Shown one piece after another: positions 1 through 5,656 of a stretch of 11,086 nt of DNA (the first letter of the stretch is position 1; each line of letters opens with the position of its first letter). The stretch is from Akkermansiaceae bacterium (lineage in GTDB: Bacteria; Verrucomicrobiota; Verrucomicrobiia; Verrucomicrobiales; Akkermansiaceae), in NCBI GenBank assembly GCA_023300065.1, contig JALZWJ010000213.1, positions 1 to 11,086 of the forward strand, in the 5' to 3' direction. Both the position numbers and the translations under genes were made by a program. Below the pieces are notes generated by a model. It saw only the letters and a program-made list of their open reading frames with translations, ran no database searches and was not told where the DNA came from.

Positions 1-413
1 CCTTTCAGGCTGATTTCGAGATGACTGATTTTGGTTCCTTGAGGGAGTTCGAGGATATCTTCAAGCTTAACTCCCTCTTTAAAGACAACGTCGTGGATTT
101 TTCCAGATGTCTCGTCGTGAAAATGGCAATGATCCGTCAAATTCGGGCAGTAGCGGGATGACTCACGCTCAAGATTGACCTGACGGACCAAATTATGGCT
201 CACGAGGGCCTCAAGGCAGTTATAAACTGTTGCGAGCGAGATGGAAGACATCCGCTTTTGAGCCCGGCTGAAGATATCGTTCGCCGTAGGGTGATCCCGT
301 TTTGCCAAAACGACCGCCAGCACTTCACGCCGCTGCTTGGTCATACGAAGCCCCTCTAACTCTGCTGGAAACTCCGCAGGATTAGGGTTTGTATGTTGAG
401 CGAGAGAGATCAT
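1..413 (-). CDS. Fur/PerR-family transcriptional regulator (3' end cut by window edge)
   Basis: This is a metal- or peroxide-responsive DNA-binding repressor of the Fur family; 137 codons are visible and the C-terminus lies outside the window. I read it by hand on the minus strand. A winged-helix domain covers residues about 20-80, with the LRMTKQRREVL start and the recognition helix SLATVYNCLEAL (59-70). The dimerisation and metal region follows, with RYCPN (87-91), HCHFHDE (95-101) and KIHDV (105-109). Aligned by eye with Bacillus PerR, the iron ligands H37, D85, H91, H93 and D104 correspond to H41, C89, H95, H97 and D108, so the Asp that marks PerR is a Cys. The first structural-zinc CxxC of typical Fur/PerR is absent (D100, S103), as in Irr-like members. 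The ATG at 413 gives the usual short N-terminal arm; M24 (344) would cut into the domain. A PerR-box-like site lies 47 bp upstream. Family is certain; the sensed signal is inferred. Confidence 0.93.
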   Translation of the reverse strand, partial: MISLAQHTNPNPAEFPAELEGLRMTKQRREVLAVVLAKRDHPTANDIFSRAQKRMSSISLATVYNCLEALVSHNLVRQVNLERESSRYCPNLTDHCHFHDETSGKIHDVVFKEGVKLEDILELPQGTKISHLEISLK

Positions 414-459
414 GGACGGCCGAAAGCTAGATCCATTCTTAGGTGGTTCAAGCCCTAAT

Positions 460-474
460 TTGGAATTATTCTAA
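460..474 (-). promoter_or_regulatory. PerR/Fur-box-like operator upstream of the Fur-family gene
   Basis: TTGGAAT-T-ATTCTAA is a 7-1-7 inverted repeat in which 6 of 7 positions pair. It is close to the Bacillus Per box TTATAATNATTATAA. It sits in the 93-bp gap between the Ig-like gene and the Fur-family gene, about 47-61 bp before the regulator's start. On the minus strand it includes TAGAAT, which could serve as a -10 hexamer, so binding there would block transcription. Autoregulation is typical of the family; for this gene it is inference. Confidence 0.6.
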
Positions 475-506
475 TTCTTGATTACCGACGATTTCACCAG
501 TGCCTA

Positions 507-1388
507 TTACTCCAACATCACCTTAAGGCGGTAGAACTTCTTCCCAACAATCGGGATACTCAGCACGATCGCGGCGTCTGTGCGGGTCACATTCTCGCTA
601 GCCACATCTTGCCAATCCGCCTCAAGGTCACTCCCTTCTTCAAAGCTCACTGCCAACGCACCGGCCGCCACATTTAGCGGGATCGCATAACGCATCTTCG
701 TGGCATCATCCGGATCAATCCCAAAGGTCCCTGGCATCGTCTCCGGTTTCGTCGGATCGAGGTCTAAAACAAACTCCATCTCATTGGTAATCCCGTCTCC
801 ATCTGGATCCGCCGTCGGCGCGACTAAGGCAGGATCGTCTAAATCGCTGCCTGCCCAAAACTCAGTGAGAAAAAACGCAAACGGATCTTCTTCCACCCCG
901 GGGTCGACGGTCAGAGTCAGCAAATACGGAGCCGTCGTTCCACGGGTCCGATTCTCAAAACGGTATCCAAAAATCGTAATTTCATACTCCCCGGGAACCG
1001 TTGGAATACCCGCCAAGAAGATCGTCCCACTCCCGTTATCAGGGCCGAAAAACGAAAGCCCCTCAGGCAAAGTCTCTAGCACGCCATCAGTATTGGCACT
1101 TGCCGCGCGCAACACGTATTGACTCACCACAAACCGCCAAGAGAACTGATCACCCACAGTGACCGTAGCAGTCTCACTGGCGCCATCCTGCGGAACAATC
1201 GTCACTGACTGGCCAGACAGGGCGTGAGTGCCCACGAAGGTGACCGTTAAGGGGGCAGCCAAGTTCACCCCACCTGTCGCCCCGAAGATCGGAGTCAGGC
1301 TCTTCAGAAAAGGCAAACGCTGCGCAACCATCGCGAGGCTACTCGCTAGCACATTTACCGTTCTTTCATACGCGATCCGATATTTCAT
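507..1388 (-). CDS. Ig-like and calcium-repeat protein, last gene of the ApbE/DUF3570 operon
   Basis: This is a 293-residue protein of unknown function, probably extracytoplasmic. Residues about 107-140 (LPEGLSFFG...GIPTVPGEYEITI) match the putative-Ig (He_PIG) pattern LPxGL...GxPTxxGxYxxTV. Residues 194-208 (DPDGDGITNEMEF) look like a thrombospondin type-3 or EF-hand-like calcium loop. The protein ends KFYRLKVMLE, a tail common in large verrucomicrobial secreted proteins. I chose the ATG at 1388: it lies 4 bp after the DUF4266 stop, which suggests translational coupling. The open frame runs on to 1481, but that part only mirrors the DUF4266 coding sequence and contains an artificial VVVVV run. 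From this start there is only a weak hydrophobic N-terminus (residues 12-35) and no clear Sec signal peptide, so export is uncertain. A role as a surface partner of the redox proteins upstream is a guess from context. Confidence 0.8.
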   Translation of the reverse strand: MKYRIAYERTVNVLASSLAMVAQRLPFLKSLTPIFGATGGVNLAAPLTVTFVGTHALSGQSVTIVPQDGASETATVTVGDQFSWRFVVSQYVLRAASANTDGVLETLPEGLSFFGPDNGSGTIFLAGIPTVPGEYEITIFGYRFENRTRGTTAPYLLTLTVDPGVEEDPFAFFLTEFWAGSDLDDPALVAPTADPDGDGITNEMEFVLDLDPTKPETMPGTFGIDPDDATKMRYAIPLNVAAGALAVSFEEGSDLEADWQDVASENVTRTDAAIVLSIPIVGKKFYRLKVMLE

Positions 1389-1392
1389 AAAA

Positions 1393-1608
1393 TTAATTAC
1401 AGCCACAACCACCACCACCGATTCCGTTACCTCCCTGAGATGCTTCTCGTGAAAAATACATATGGTCCGACATGGCATCACCCAATGAATCCCGCCCTGG
1501 TGCCATTACCTTGGCCGCCAAGTTTTTGCGCTCCGCCGGAGTAGATACATTCGTACAAGAAGGCAAAATAAACGCGCAAATCGCTAATAGTTTAAGTGCT
1601 AAGGACAT
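1393..1608 (-). CDS. DUF4266 small lipoprotein
   Basis: This 71-residue protein matches the DUF4266 family as I remember it: a lipoprotein signal, an R..LA..xM segment, HMYFSREAS, and a glycine-rich end GGGGCGCN. The signal is residues 1-17 with lipobox LPSC, so C18 would be lipidated and the mature protein has only 54 residues. Conserved-looking residues are R27, M35, H49, S53, R54, E55 and the terminal C68-G-C70-N71. The function is unknown. The Cys-Gly-Cys end and the location beside an FMN transferase suggest a redox or metal-binding role, which is inference. I chose the ATG at 1608 because the hydrophobic signal follows at once; the frame extends to 1668, but those residues are hydrophilic. 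The gene overlaps the ApbE stop by 17 bp and ends 4 bp before the next start, so all three are probably co-translated. Confidence 0.93.
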   Translation of the reverse strand: MSLALKLLAICAFILPSCTNVSTPAERKNLAAKVMAPGRDSLGDAMSDHMYFSREASQGGNGIGGGGCGCN

Positions 1609-2536
1609 AGTGGTGAATTTTTGAGCTAAAAAGTGTTTCCGAGGACCCCTGCAAAATTGCTTCAACACCGAATTTTCGATCGATCAATTCCATCCCGGCG
1701 GCCAGTCCTAACACACAACTAGTCGTCGCAAGAAGGCCTGCTGTCAAACAGTCATCTGCCAAACACGAGGAAGTCAGGACCTCTGTTTCCGCTGGCCGGC
1801 CAGTGCGCACATCGATGATATGACCGAATTTCTCCCCTCCAATCATCCGAAATCGCCTTCCATTCCCCGAGGTCGCCAAACCTTTTCCACTCACTGCTAA
1901 TCGATAGGCTGATCCGTTTTCCACCCTCGCATCCTCCACACCCAGCACCCAAGCCTCCCCCTGCGGAGGTGTTCCGATGGCAGCCACATCCCTGCCTAAA
2001 TCTACCAAACAATCTTTGATGCCAAAGCGCTTGGCTTCACCGATCAAGCGGTCCACCGCATACTCCTTCCCAAATCCACCAATCTCCAAAGCCATCTCCT
2101 TTTCCGGTAAAAACACCTCACCACTCCCCCACTCCACCGATGGCCAAGACACCAACTCCTTCGCTTCTAAAACCTTCTCCTCACTCGGCAAGCAATTCCT
2201 CTTACCAGCCTCATCCCACAAAGTAGTCATCGGAAGTGACGTCGGGTCATTCAAGCCATCCGTCACCCGGTAAGTATGATCACAAAGCCTTAAAATCTCC
2301 TCATCTTCTTCCGAAACTTCCACCGCTCGGCGCCCCGCCTCCGCATTAATTCTACACAACAAGCTCTCCGGCTTAAACCTCGACCACCGAGCCTCAAACT
2401 CACGTAGCCACCCTAAAGCTGCCTTACGATAATCCTTCGCCGCCTCTACCGACTCCGTCCGGAACTGCACCTCGCACACCGTTCCCAGCGCCTGAAACTT
2501 AAGCCGAAAGAGACCCGCTGTGAGATTCTCCGCCAT
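1592..2536 (-). CDS. apbE: ApbE-like FAD:protein FMN transferase
   Basis: ApbE enzymes cleave FAD and attach FMN through a phosphoester to a Ser/Thr of exported proteins, using magnesium. This protein has 314 residues, a normal core length. Numbered from the ATG, motifs in order are ALGTVCEV (16-23), SRFKPES (52-58), DPTSLPMTTLWD (97-108), GGFGKEYAVD (153-162), VDLGRD (178-183), TSGNGRRF (222-229) and GHIIDVRTG (238-246). Three positions are odd. The usual KGY is KEY. The usual HxxDPxTG has V for P. The C-terminal AD(A/S)LAT reads AGLLAT, which loses the Asp known to bind the metal (G267) but keeps the Thr (T271). No signal peptide or lipobox is visible, although classical ApbE is exported. 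The start is ATG 2536; a GTG lies directly in front at 2539. It lies 15 bp after DUF3570 and overlaps DUF4266 by 17 bp. Family is secure; activity is not proven by the sequence. Confidence 0.92.
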   Translation of the reverse strand: MAENLTAGLFRLKFQALGTVCEVQFRTESVEAAKDYRKAALGWLREFEARWSRFKPESLLCRINAEAGRRAVEVSEEDEEILRLCDHTYRVTDGLNDPTSLPMTTLWDEAGKRNCLPSEEKVLEAKELVSWPSVEWGSGEVFLPEKEMALEIGGFGKEYAVDRLIGEAKRFGIKDCLVDLGRDVAAIGTPPQGEAWVLGVEDARVENGSAYRLAVSGKGLATSGNGRRFRMIGGEKFGHIIDVRTGRPAETEVLTSSCLADDCLTAGLLATTSCVLGLAAGMELIDRKFGVEAILQGSSETLFSSKIHHYVLST

Positions 2537-2551
2537 CACTGAATTACTGAA

Positions 2552-3724
2552 TTAGAAACTCCACTGAATGCCCGCTGAAATCACATTTGCGGTCGGGAAA
2601 AATGAATCCGGCGTGTCTGAATCGAGGCCATTGATCTCATATCTCTCCACTTGTAAATCTAGGATCACATTACTCCGCAGCTCCCAAGCCATTCGCACCC
2701 CGTAAGTCAGAGCCTCCTGCTCAGAGATCCGGTAATCCGAAGAATAATTTTCCCCACTCCCATCGATCAAACCAGTCCCATCGATCCCCGTCCCAGTCAG
2801 GGTCGGAAAATAAAAATCAGCCGCGCTCTGTCGATAATATCGTAAATACGGCGTCACACTCAGCTGCGGATTCACCTGCTGAATCCATTTCAGCTCAAAG
2901 GTATGCCCCTGCAGACCATGGTTATTCGCAAAGAACCGGTAAGACCCATTCAATGCCGCACCAGCCTGTTCAAAATAGTGCCGCAAGTTCAACTTGGCCA
3001 CAAACCGATCCTGCTCATCAGGCCGGTTCTCCGCAAAATTCAAAGTGTTCGTAATCGTTTGCTCCCCCCCGAATGGAGAGATCACCACAAAATCCCTAAT
3101 CTGAGAAATCCGGCGATAAGGATCTGAGAGATACCCCTCACTCCGGCCATAACCAGCGTTAAAATCTAAGAGCGTATTTGGCCCCAGAATCTGAGAAACC
3201 CCAACACTCAAATCAAACGTATCCTTATCCTCATCTTCAAAATTACTCGTCCCACCAGTTGGTGATGCCAACACCTCATCAAAGGCAAATGACACCCCTC
3301 CCGTTACCGTCGTATTTTTCTGATTAAACTGTCGACTGACCCTCGCCGTCACCGCATTCGACCGATAGTCCTCCTCCTCACTATGCGCATACTCAAAGCT
3401 CAGCGTGTAATCATCAACCTCATGCTCAATCGTGGCCACCACCACCTTCCGCTCATCGTCAATCTGCTGGAAGAGGAAGTCCGTATCATCTCCCACCGCA
3501 TGCGTCCCTGTCGGAGTCATCCCGCTTAAAGTATCGATCGCTAAACGCACGCTCGCCTTCGTCTTCCCCCAGCGATGCTCGTAATCCAGATAATGTGACT
3601 CCACCCCGATCCGATCCCCTTCCTCCTGGTAGAGCTGGAAGCGATACTTCAAGGCATCTTGTCCCGATGCCGCACCGACCGTCAGAGCAGGGAAAGCGGG
3701 AAAGAAAAGGGATCGAAATTCCAT
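2552..3724 (-). CDS. DUF3570 outer-membrane beta-barrel protein
   Basis: This 390-residue protein has an N-terminal signal-like segment (1-21, ending AASG), followed by alternating amphipathic strands and a terminal GIQWSF. A final aromatic residue is the usual outer-membrane barrel signature. It matches DUF3570 by its layout: YRFQLYQEEGDRIGVESHYLDYEH near the start, DTLSGMTPTG (64-73) where the family has, from memory, DxLTGASPxG, an S/E-rich EEEDYRS (116-122), and GYLSDPYR (197-204). The function of DUF3570 is unknown. Its recurrent neighbours are ApbE, DUF4266 and thioredoxin-like proteins; no thioredoxin is visible here. The DxxSGxT motif is close to the Dxx(S/T)GA(S/T) acceptor motif of ApbE substrates, so it could be the flavinylated partner, but this is a hypothesis. 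The start is supported by a strong Shine-Dalgarno sequence nine bases upstream. It follows the isomerase gene by 48 bp. Confidence 0.9.
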   Translation of the reverse strand: MEFRSLFFPAFPALTVGAASGQDALKYRFQLYQEEGDRIGVESHYLDYEHRWGKTKASVRLAIDTLSGMTPTGTHAVGDDTDFLFQQIDDERKVVVATIEHEVDDYTLSFEYAHSEEEDYRSNAVTARVSRQFNQKNTTVTGGVSFAFDEVLASPTGGTSNFEDEDKDTFDLSVGVSQILGPNTLLDFNAGYGRSEGYLSDPYRRISQIRDFVVISPFGGEQTITNTLNFAENRPDEQDRFVAKLNLRHYFEQAGAALNGSYRFFANNHGLQGHTFELKWIQQVNPQLSVTPYLRYYRQSAADFYFPTLTGTGIDGTGLIDGSGENYSSDYRISEQEALTYGVRMAWELRSNVILDLQVERYEINGLDSDTPDSFFPTANVISAGIQWSF

Positions 3725-3733
3725 GGCTTAGTA

Positions 3734-3742
3734 ATCACCTCC
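3734..3742 (-). promoter_or_regulatory. Strong Shine-Dalgarno of the DUF3570 gene
   Basis: On the minus strand GGAGGTGAT lies nine bases before the ATG at 3724. It is a near-perfect complement of the 16S rRNA tail. Most other genes in the window have weak or no such site, so this one supports the chosen start and suggests that the barrel is translated strongly from within the operon. Confidence 0.75.
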
Positions 3743-3772
3743 CCACCTTCCCATGTCGATCTTTCTCTCACA

Positions 3773-4630
3773 TTAGCCTTTCCCCACTTTTTCAATCACC
3801 GCCGTCTCTCGCAGCTCCCTCGCCAACCCCTGTAGCGCGCCTCGTCGCTTCCGCGCCAAGGCCCTATTCTCTAGCTCCTCTCTTACTTCCGCCAGTGGCA
3901 CTACCTCCTCTTCCTTCCGTTCCACCACTTTTACCAAATGCATCGCGTGCTCATAAACCATCACCGGCGAAACCTCCCCCACCCTCATTGAAAACAGCGC
4001 CGCTTCAAAGGGATTTGTCGGCCGATCCAGCGTGATCCATCCTAAGTCCACCTTCCCGGTCGTCTTCTCAGTCTCCCGCCCCGCTGGCTCTAAAAAATCG
4101 CCGCTCTCCAGCACCTCCTCACGTAGGCCACACATCTTAGCGAACACCTCCGGCGCCGTCGTATTCTCATTCAACGTCTTCATCACATGCAGACTCCGCA
4201 CCTCCGCCGGAGATCGATATTCATCTCGGTGCTCCTCATAAAAAACCTCCACCTCAGCCGCACTCACCTGGTTGTCAGCCCCCAGTAATTCAGAAATCAA
4301 CTTCTCCATCCGCATCGACGCCGCAATCTCATGCCGCATCATATCGCGCTGCTTATCCAACATCTCCCAAGACGCCCCATTCTCTCGGTAAGCATCGATC
4401 ACCTCCTTCAGCCTCGGCTTAATCTCCTCCTCCGGAATCTCCTCAAACCTCTTCTCAGCCTCCTGCGCGATCAAAATCGAGTCCGCCACCTCCTGCTCCG
4501 CCTGCTCATAAAACTCCCCATCCCGCTCACAGCACTCCCCCTGAATTCGCTGCTCCTCCGCCCCCTTCACCCGATTGAAGGTCTCCTCCACCAACTCCTG
4601 ATCAACCAACTCACCATTCACACGTAACAT
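3773..4630 (-). CDS. Parvulin-type (PpiC/SurA-like) peptidyl-prolyl cis-trans isomerase
   Basis: This 285-residue protein catalyses proline isomerisation during protein folding. An acidic helical SurA-N-like part covers about 1-135 and opens MLRVNGELVDQ, like the VNGxxI opening of the family. A PpiC rotamase domain covers about 140-238: SPAEVRSLHVM (140-150), KVDLGWIT (193-200), FEAALFSMRVGEVSPV (208-223) and HAMHLVKVVE (228-237). The two histidines expected in parvulin active sites are present (in SLHVM and MHLVK). A basic helix rich in R and K ends it. From the ATG at 4630 there is no signal peptide or membrane anchor, so it appears cytoplasmic, unlike SurA; a GTG start at 4690 would add only a Gly/Trp-rich stretch that is not a signal either. 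It is the first gene of the DUF3570-ApbE-DUF4266 operon, so its client may be one of these products. Confidence 0.87.
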   Translation of the reverse strand: MLRVNGELVDQELVEETFNRVKGAEEQRIQGECCERDGEFYEQAEQEVADSILIAQEAEKRFEEIPEEEIKPRLKEVIDAYRENGASWEMLDKQRDMMRHEIAASMRMEKLISELLGADNQVSAAEVEVFYEEHRDEYRSPAEVRSLHVMKTLNENTTAPEVFAKMCGLREEVLESGDFLEPAGRETEKTTGKVDLGWITLDRPTNPFEAALFSMRVGEVSPVMVYEHAMHLVKVVERKEEEVVPLAEVREELENRALARKRRGALQGLARELRETAVIEKVGKG

Positions 4631-4735
4631 TCCAGAACCTTGCCCACCCCACCAAAAAAACACCAGCCCCTTTCCCCCACACCACCCCACGGAGATTTGG
4701 CTTTAGCCCGATTGCAGATCCTAAGCCCCACAACC

Positions 4736-4762
4736 ATTCCGTGTCATCCGTGTATTCCATGG
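4736..4762. repeat. 9-bp periodic intergenic repeat (CCGTGT type)
   Basis: Three 9-base units follow one another: ATTCCGTGT, CATCCGTGT and ATTCCATGG, then TTCAAAAA. They lie in the 234-bp divergent gap between the isomerase and the CPBP protease genes. I recall similar CATCCGTGT phrases between genes in Verrucomicrobiota and related phyla, so it is probably a dispersed genomic repeat rather than an operator. The rest of the gap is C-rich and shows no clear promoter or hairpin. Confidence 0.6.
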
Positions 4763-4864
4763 TTCAAAAATCCCTCAACCAAGCCACCATTCATCCACCA
4801 TCCACCAACCCCCAAATTTAAACCTTCAACATCCCCCCCAAAAACCTGAACCTCCCCCAAACCA

Positions 4865-5656
4865 ATGTCGGACAACCCCTACATCCCACCGCGAGTATCC
4901 CCCCCTCCGCTCCCAGCACTCGATCCCCTCAAAAGAACCCCATGGAACGGCTGGTGGACTCTCCTCTGGGCCATCGTCCTCTTCATTTCCTGGCAGATCA
5001 TCATGTCCATCGGCTTCGGCATTGCCCTAGGCGTCAATGGCGCCATCGACTCAGATCTCGACCCCACCAAACTCCAAAAATCCCTCGCCGACTTCACCAC
5101 CGATGGCGACATTATCGGCATCATCGCCTTCACCACCATCTTCTTCATCTGCCCCGCCTGCTGGCTCATCGGCAAGCTCCGACCCGGCTGGACTGGGTGG
5201 GAATATCTAGGGAACACCAAAACCAAATGGTGGCACTGGCCCGTCTGGGGTGCTGCCACCATCGCCTGCTCACTCCTCTTCGGCCTCATCGGACCCCACC
5301 TCGGAGTCGATGGCCCCGACGACTCCATGGTCGCCATGGGCCAATCCACTCAACACCCCATCCTCCTCTACCTAGGCGTCGGCATCGGCGCCCCCCTTGT
5401 TGAAGAATTCATCTTCCGCGGCGCCGTCTGGCGAGGCTGGCGCGCCTCCCGCCTAGCCCTCCCCGGCACCCTCTTCCTCACCTCCCTCTTCTGGGCCATC
5501 CTCCATGTCCAATACCCCGCCGTCATCATTGCCTACATCTTCTGCCTCGGACTCGTCCTCGGCATCGCCCGCGAGAAAACCGGCAACCTCTGGGTCCCCG
5601 TCTGGATGCATGCCCTCAACAATGGCCTCGCAACCCACAGCATGCTTAACCTATAA
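4865..5656 (+). CDS. CPBP-family intramembrane glutamic endopeptidase
   Basis: CPBP (CAAX protease and bacteriocin-processing, Abi/Rce1-like) proteins are membrane proteases that cut within or near the bilayer. This one has 263 residues. After a proline-rich cytosolic tail (1-25) come hydrophobic segments at about 31-58, 83-102, 126-144, 165-180, 200-215, 218-235 and 243-258. The three catalytic motifs are in order: EExxxR as EEFIFR (180-185), an aromatic-xxx-H motif as WAILH (210-214, with W for the usual F), and HxxxN as HALNN (249-253). The substrate cannot be told from the sequence. The gene is divergent from the isomerase operon and is followed after 11 bp by the SGNH hydrolase gene, so the two are probably co-transcribed. 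Codons end strongly in C, as in the next gene. Confidence 0.92.
   Translation: MSDNPYIPPRVSPPPLPALDPLKRTPWNGWWTLLWAIVLFISWQIIMSIGFGIALGVNGAIDSDLDPTKLQKSLADFTTDGDIIGIIAFTTIFFICPACWLIGKLRPGWTGWEYLGNTKTKWWHWPVWGAATIACSLLFGLIGPHLGVDGPDDSMVAMGQSTQHPILLYLGVGIGAPLVEEFIFRGAVWRGWRASRLALPGTLFLTSLFWAILHVQYPAVIIAYIFCLGLVLGIAREKTGNLWVPVWMHALNNGLATHSMLNL

Follow-up and report, generated by a model that had tools for sequence, protein, structure and literature searches.

The question raised by this locus is what its five closely packed genes accomplish together. The window, i.e., the whole stretch of 11,086 nucleotides that was analyzed, is an 11-kb contig (JALZWJ010000213.1) from an Akkermansiaceae genome (GCA_023300065.1) of 2.2 Mb that is 65% complete, and the five open reading frames (ORFs) occupy its minus strand between positions 4630 and 507. 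An original prediction, made from the DNA letters alone, had read them as an uncharacterized redox system of the cell envelope; the gaps that it gave between them (48, 15, -17 and 4 bp) match the coordinates when ApbE is started at its ATG codon. The answer that we favor, with moderate confidence, is that the locus is a variant of the DUF3570-ApbE-DUF4266 type of cluster, in which a cytosolic ApbE flavinylates both the DUF3570 barrel and the immunoglobulin (Ig)-like product of the fifth gene before their export.

The identities proposed for the first four genes, all on the minus strand, were confirmed by Pfam. They are a parvulin-type peptidyl-prolyl isomerase of 285 amino acids (3773..4630; PF13145, 50.8 bits); a DUF3570 outer-membrane barrel (2552..3724; PF12094, 216.7 bits); ApbE, the flavin adenine dinucleotide (FAD):protein flavin mononucleotide (FMN) transferase, of a signal-less subfamily (1592..2539 with a GTG start, or to 2536 with ATG; PF02424, 199.5 bits); and a small DUF4266 protein of 71 amino acids with a lipobox-like LPSC and a C-terminal CGC (1393..1608; PF14086, 63.6 bits). 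The scores of the last three exceeded the Pfam cut-off, and their genes adjoin on one strand. The Cys-Gly-Cys of DUF4266 (1399..1407) is a possible redox-active thiol pair, and the N-terminus of this family was hydrophobic in all 86 ORFs scored; it is to be noted that the N-termini here and below were judged by crude hydrophobicity scans, made without a signal-peptide program. Flavinylation clusters of the form DUF3570-ApbE-DUF4266-thioredoxin(-DsbD) were described by Meheust et al. 2021 (PMC8238504), where the CXC of DUF4266 is given as highly conserved and a flavin-dependent redox role in the envelope is proposed, the role being called uncertain, with a hint at iron. In the expression test of that paper, DUF3570 of Chlorobium luteolum was flavinylated with its own ApbE, both in signal-peptide-free form, in E. 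coli; the barrel was mostly insoluble and yet flavinylated, so membrane folding is not required for the reaction. The core of the window is therefore a cluster of a known kind, in a clear variant, and the idea of a wholly uncharacterized five-gene set is ruled out for the part that Meheust et al. cover. The original prediction was right that the three families are recurrent neighbors, as borne out by that paper and by the loci fetched here (usual order, DUF3570-ApbE-(thioredoxin)-DUF4266), and its flavin-dependent envelope role coincides with the published reading, while its statement that they have no defined function is out of date. Within the literature searched, outside of which most subscription journals lie, DUF4266 or DUF3570 was named in Meheust et al. 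2021 alone. What goes beyond the clusters as set out there is a family of fifth proteins as candidate substrates, a signal-less ApbE with an altered active site, and a paired variation of enzyme and motif.

The fifth gene (507..1388, minus strand), recognized from its ORF, a family motif and an AlphaFold2 model, encodes an Ig-like protein of 293 amino acids that had no Pfam match. By single-linkage clustering it was grouped with larger proteins that adjoin DUF4266 in many loci, reaching 2571 amino acids in the loci seen; where the sources name them, they are ‘hypothetical’, ‘Ig-like’ or ‘immunoglobulin domain-containing’. Luteolibacter arcticus and Brevifollis gellanilyticus are two named species with a member. 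Ig-type Pfam domains (He_PIG, Ig_3, Ig_7, HYDIN-like) were found in three of four members scanned and none in the other, and the model of the window protein, with a mean predicted local distance difference test score (pLDDT) of 79.9 and a predicted template modeling score (pTM) of 0.47, matched Ig domains in PDB. In this model a helix spans residues 2-24, confidence is low over 32-57, and the first strand begins at 64; the protein thus consists of an N-terminal helix, a QRxP element, a flexible linker with the motif, and then the Ig-like domains. The same layout recurs in the family, i.e., a hydrophobic N-terminus, Q[R/K]xP with few exceptions, and a seven-residue motif 32-40 residues from that Gln. 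Since QRxP served to pick the first 56 fifth proteins, its conservation among them is circular; a later profile search added 16 ORFs, several with QKxP, two of which match in the later Ig part only. An acidic ADPDxDGIxN stretch also appears in the alignment consensus, which is mostly of members from the genus of the window, and hence ‘Ig/calcium-repeat’ was a fair description, calcium binding being putative. The further suggestion that this is the surface part of the system passed over its most telling feature, which is the motif, and its location in the cell is putative.

The motif in the window is HALSGQS (residues 55-61; 1206..1226, minus strand), at the end of the low-confidence stretch, with Ser61 as the proposed FMN acceptor. 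The ApbE motif is given as D-x-x-[S/T]-G-A-[S/T] in PMC12052999 and PMC10722498, and this strict form is absent from the window protein and present in 19 of the 127 non-identical family members. All 127, which were selected with a profile that includes the motif columns, carry the related form [D/H/N/Q]-x-x-[S/A/T/V]-G-[A/Q/S]-[S/T]; position 1 is His in 63, Asp in 52, Asn in 10 and Gln in 2, position 4 is Ala in 65, Ser in 46, Thr in 9 and Val in 7, position 5 is always Gly, position 6 is Ala in 103, Gln in 23 and Ser in 1, and position 7 is Thr in 94 and Ser in 33. A search of 5.8 billion proteins gave 103 matches, a set that partly overlaps the 127 relatives; after two were dropped (P0086, without the region, and P0103, with a gap in the motif), the Gly was kept in 100/101 and the final Ser or Thr in 101/101. 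Among 604 other ORFs (238,741 residues) without the fifth family, the strict motif did not occur, and the loose form occurred 24 times, within the first 120 residues in 11 ORFs. As summarized in PMC12052999, seven residues are enough for ApbE, and the site works best at a protein terminus; such a tag-like site is what ApbE modifies best, and the motif of the window protein lies near its N-terminal end. The fifth family as a second flavinylation substrate is well supported but unproven.

The fifth family is also linked to ApbE in gene order. The ApbE-subfamily loci compared were the best 80 of at least 581, titled as Verrucomicrobiota, as ‘PVC group’ or as unnamed bacteria; the nearest to the window, among the matches listed, were Akkermansiaceae, Verrucomicrobiales or Verrucomicrobiota metagenome-assembled genomes. 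A fifth-family member lay on the same strand in 60 of these 80 loci (in L234 the match does not run from the profile start). In L214, L221 and L224 the fifth gene begins 20, 57 and 21 bp past ApbE, with no DUF3570, DUF4266 or thioredoxin-like gene recognized in the fetched flank, although L214 and L224 look like close relatives and are thus not independent; in L151 the two genes are separated by 40 bp and the rest of the core is missing, and in L227 one ORF separates them. Four members (L147-L150) lie in stretches without a recognized ApbE and keep the motif. In a draw of 288 genomes across the phylum, DUF4266 was detected in 29, and all 15 genomes with a fifth-family match above 100 bits also carry DUF4266, these being 15 of the 16 DUF4266 genomes inside the class. 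A draw of 260 genomes of the family gave DUF4266 in 51, of which 22 were from the genus of the window (27 genomes), and one genome (G392) with a fifth-family match above 100 bits and no DUF4266 match.

Within the genus, the full order parvulin-DUF3570-ApbE-DUF4266-fifth gene was repeated in 16 of 21 other window-type loci, and is therefore not due to chance. Parvulin was missing from the remaining five; four of these (L091, L096, L097 and L106) run into a contig edge, or nearly so, on the upstream side, and in L104 it was not found in the fetched flank. Regarding the proposal that the locus lacks thioredoxin and gains parvulin, this holds for the genus, since no thioredoxin-like gene was recognized in the window or in any of the 21, whereas most of the remaining loci compared have one. 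No DsbD gene is present in the window either; DsbD_TM was detected in 23 of the 27 genus genomes and not found in the incomplete genome of the window itself. Homologues found mostly apart had been named as a refutation of the prediction; in fact, four of the five genes stay together, and the parvulin does so in the genus only.

The first candidate substrate, DUF3570, was modeled by AlphaFold2 with high confidence (pLDDT 93.3, pTM 0.86) as a barrel of 18 strands that matches porins in PDB, such as OmpG and AlgE. Its four longest loops (36, 13, 11 and 7 residues) each follow odd strands, which places them outside the cell if both barrel ends are periplasmic. The sequence starts MEFRSLFFPAFPALTVGAASGQ in the hydrophobicity scan. 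It has no strict [S/T]GA[S/T] match; rather, DTLSGMT (residues 64-70; 3515..3535, minus strand), with Thr70 as the proposed FMN acceptor, lines up with ISGAT/IAGAT, the corresponding site in other Verrucomicrobial DUF3570s. Because the Asp, Gly and Thr of that site are kept, the protein is regarded as a variant and not as a strict cluster member. Judging from the strand lengths in the model, the motif would lie toward the top of strand 55-76, close to the outer rim. The sites of the two substrates can be alike within a locus, e.g., DSIAGAT in DUF3570 and DTLAGAT in the fifth protein of L061. As a separate observation, the DUF3570 gene of one cluster (L046) is split into three ORFs, through real damage or an error of assembly.

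In the window ApbE, Ser224 and His240 align with Ser257 and His273 of FmnB (FmnB numbering via an offset of 20; residue roles as assigned in PMC12052999), and both catalytic residues are kept in 81/81 cluster ApbEs. The catalytic Asp301 of FmnB, however, corresponds to Gly268; Gly is found here in 78 of the 81, the others being L058-L060, and a wider alignment of 149 ApbEs had 146 Gly and 3 Asp. GKE replaces the AKG of L058-L060 and of four of the five other ApbEs of the genus examined; perhaps it compensates for the loss of Asp, which is a guess. A hydrophobic N-terminus is missing in 76 of the 81 cluster ApbEs, including that of the window, whereas two other ApbEs of the same genome (G000:C119, L237, and G000:C232, L236) have lipoprotein-like starts. 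The window ApbE is thus most likely cytosolic, and in a subfamily that is mostly without signal peptide and has Gly for Asp301, the flavin is probably attached before export. Two further observations on these enzymes may be added. One of the two other ApbE genes lies next to the gene of an FMN_bind protein and that of a membrane protein, likely of PepSY type from a reading of its sequence. Position 264, four residues before the Asp-to-Gly place, is Cys in 26/26 sequences of alignment A4, which were chosen, while, of the sequences available, alignments A1, A2 and A3 took in 39 of 55, 40 of 56 and 59 of 76.

Enzyme and motifs appear to vary together. The genus of the window has a bulky residue in both motifs (SGMT in DUF3570, SGQS in the fifth protein), and its ApbE has Gly227 (1859..1861, minus strand), three residues past the catalytic Ser224, at a position that is Tyr in 119 of the 149 ApbEs. 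Of 123 loci with data on enzyme and motif alike, 23 have Q, M or E as a bulky residue in at least one of the motifs; the ApbE of each is non-Tyr (22 Gly, 1 Ala), and no such residue was found in the 93 loci with Tyr. In these counts the DUF3570 motif was scored for the genome-draw loci only and the named database loci by the fifth protein alone; L156-L165, which probably duplicate genus loci, were excluded.

These findings can be joined in the following scheme. The signal-less ApbE would load FMN in the cytosol onto Thr70 of DUF3570 and onto Ser61 in the N-terminal linker of the fifth protein, and both flavinylated proteins would then be exported. The DUF4266 lipoprotein, via its C-terminal Cys-x-Cys, would relay electrons from periplasmic thiols to the flavins, one of them near the outer rim of the barrel and the second borne by the Ig protein. 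The parvulin, in an operon without thioredoxin, may keep the substrates in a state suited to modification by ApbE, and, as a bold guess, may have as its target the Thr-Pro bond that directly follows the DUF3570 acceptor (GMT-P). It looks cytosolic, as none of the 17 parvulins scored had a hydrophobic N-terminus (two of them, L092 and L094, being truncated at this end), and it was found in genus loci only, among the loci fetched, no whole-genome search having been run; its suggested role as a folding helper at the outer membrane is thus unlikely. Among the loci fetched, this restriction to the genus also excludes it as part of a general system. It shares the PPIC domain with NifM/PrsA-type parvulins, with weak NCBIfam matches over most of its length, and identification as NifM was rejected (TIGR02933, 42.7 bits against a cut-off of 168.2). 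PrsA has a signal peptide, whereas the window parvulin has none that is apparent.

Several points weigh against this scheme. Flavin on the window proteins is a prediction from sequence, and the same is true of the activity of a subfamily in which 146/149 aligned ApbEs have Gly for Asp301. Motif position 1 in the fifth family is His more often than Asp (63 vs. 52 of 127) but Asp in 90/90 paired DUF3570s, and position 4 is Ala or Val in 72/127; the Asp is called essential in PMC10722498, while the review PMC12052999, in its account of the motif, gives only minor effects for Asp to Ala. The fifth-family gene was absent from 20 of the 80 ApbE loci, some of which are short contigs, and all 13 DUF4266 genomes outside the class were without a strong fifth-family match. 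The export route, membrane topology and place in the cell of the fifth protein are putative. As for the paired variation, seven loci combine a non-Tyr ApbE with small motif residues, and with two origins of the bulky motif and four changes of Tyr on the tree, the events are too scarce for the link to be significant, and it stands as a lead; a matching of position 4 between the DUF3570 and fifth motifs was not convincing, given the few cases and a nearest-pair rule that mispairs loci with two clusters.

A last point on the same side is that the motif admits another reading, in which it is a signal peptidase I site (A-x-A followed by T/S) of an ordinary secreted Ig protein and DUF3570 alone is flavinylated. 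Sites of this peptidase obey the -3/-1 rule, and in members with Ala the sequence [A/S/V/T]-G-A|[T/S] follows a moderately hydrophobic stretch and is compatible with it. We nonetheless consider this unlikely, since Gln occupies the would-be -1 position in 23/127 members and 64/101 database proteins, the window included, and since Gly at -2 and Ser/Thr at +1 are near-invariant, while of 180 other ORFs that combine a hydrophobic N-terminus with an AxA-like site, 2 showed both (crude scan); moreover, the family is also found with ApbE alone. It might instead be supposed that flavinylation is being lost in the genus, the motifs having drifted from [S/T]GA[S/T] and the ApbE having lost active-site residues, with a structural role left, as SGMT, SGQS, Gly227 and Gly268 in the window would suggest. 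This seems quite improbable, because the motif Gly, the acceptor Ser/Thr and the catalytic Ser and His are kept in the aligned genus members, and because window-type clusters recur in the genus, mostly in full order. Gly268, being common to nearly the entire ApbE alignment and mostly found beside standard motifs, is not a decay of this genus, and, by the account of PMC12052999, Bertsova 2019 still saw ~50% flavinylation after a change of Ala to Val in a tested substrate. There is also little likelihood that the window-type ApbE reaches the periplasm by another route and flavinylates after export, as in known systems; against it stand the 76/81 ApbEs without a hydrophobic N-terminus and the fact that L058-L060, the only Asp-type enzymes of the 149, do have one, which indicates that the trait goes with the subfamily.

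Flavinylation of both proteins before export by a cytosolic ApbE thus remains the explanation that we favor. A broader proposal is tentative, though plausible: that in Verrucomicrobiota of the class of the window a divergent cytosolic ApbE flavinylates envelope proteins before export, that an entire family of Ig-array proteins carries electrons on tethered flavins, and that in the genus the enzyme and both motifs changed together at one recognition position. If confirmed at the bench, the fifth protein would define a new class of bacterial envelope redox proteins; the list of ApbE substrates would gain a class without a recognized flavin-binding fold, the Verrucomicrobial Ig-array proteins would gain a redox role, and flavin would be attached to envelope proteins ahead of their export.

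The surroundings of the cluster and its relatives elsewhere added some observations. Downstream lies a Fur-family regulator gene (3..413, minus strand; the label is a reading of the sequence), cut by the window end, a neighbor whose membership of the operon is putative; the genus has a Fur-family gene downstream at 9 other loci as well, possibly a hint of control by iron or peroxide. A CAAX-type protease gene lies upstream in 11 genus loci. Consensus scans of positions 1-5000 gave 6 promoter-like sites (3.1 expected, standard deviation 1.6) and 4 terminator-like sites (4.4 expected), which decide nothing on transcription. DUF4266, DUF3570 and ApbE occur in another gene order and without a fifth-family protein in L107, L108, L113, L142 and L058-L060. 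Four genus genomes have a second cluster (L118, L125, L126 and L133) of DUF3570, thioredoxin-like, DUF4266 and fifth genes, with motifs LSGQT and LSGAS and without an ApbE found on the same strand; in L125 an ApbE lies on the opposite (convergent) strand, with TSGNE at the Tyr place, so that absence of ApbE holds for L118, L126 and L133 only, as fetched. Lastly, a run of genes that may encode a sensor for the flavin system was seen in L034, L052 and L150. It comprises a response regulator, a histidine kinase, a protein of 415-444 amino acids (no Pfam match in the one scanned, of L034) and a fifth-family protein; the L052 regulator is a reading of its ORF, and in L150 a further ORF separates the regulator from the kinase.

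Compared with known systems, the window shares with the Meheust clusters the adjoining DUF3570, ApbE and DUF4266 genes on one strand and the C-terminal CXC of DUF4266. It differs from them in having no thioredoxin or DsbD gene alongside, one atypical motif (SGMT) in DUF3570 instead of two [S/T]GA[S/T], and a signal-less ApbE with Gly for Asp, and in the addition of a parvulin and an Ig protein with its own motif. The cytosolic ApbE of Klebsiella pneumoniae and its fumarate reductase, as presented in PMC12052999, offer a parallel for an ApbE without signal peptide and thus for cytosolic attachment, except that the substrate there is soluble, whereas those proposed here look envelope-located. 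Flavodoxin_4 and FMN_red proteins, shown to be ApbE substrates in PMC11334425 (mSystems 2024), were likewise found by ApbE neighborhood and motif, and bear the site on an inserted loop or tail, as the window Ig protein would. These domains, however, have a flavin-binding fold, whereas none was recognized in the Ig protein, which would therefore carry its flavin on a flexible tether.

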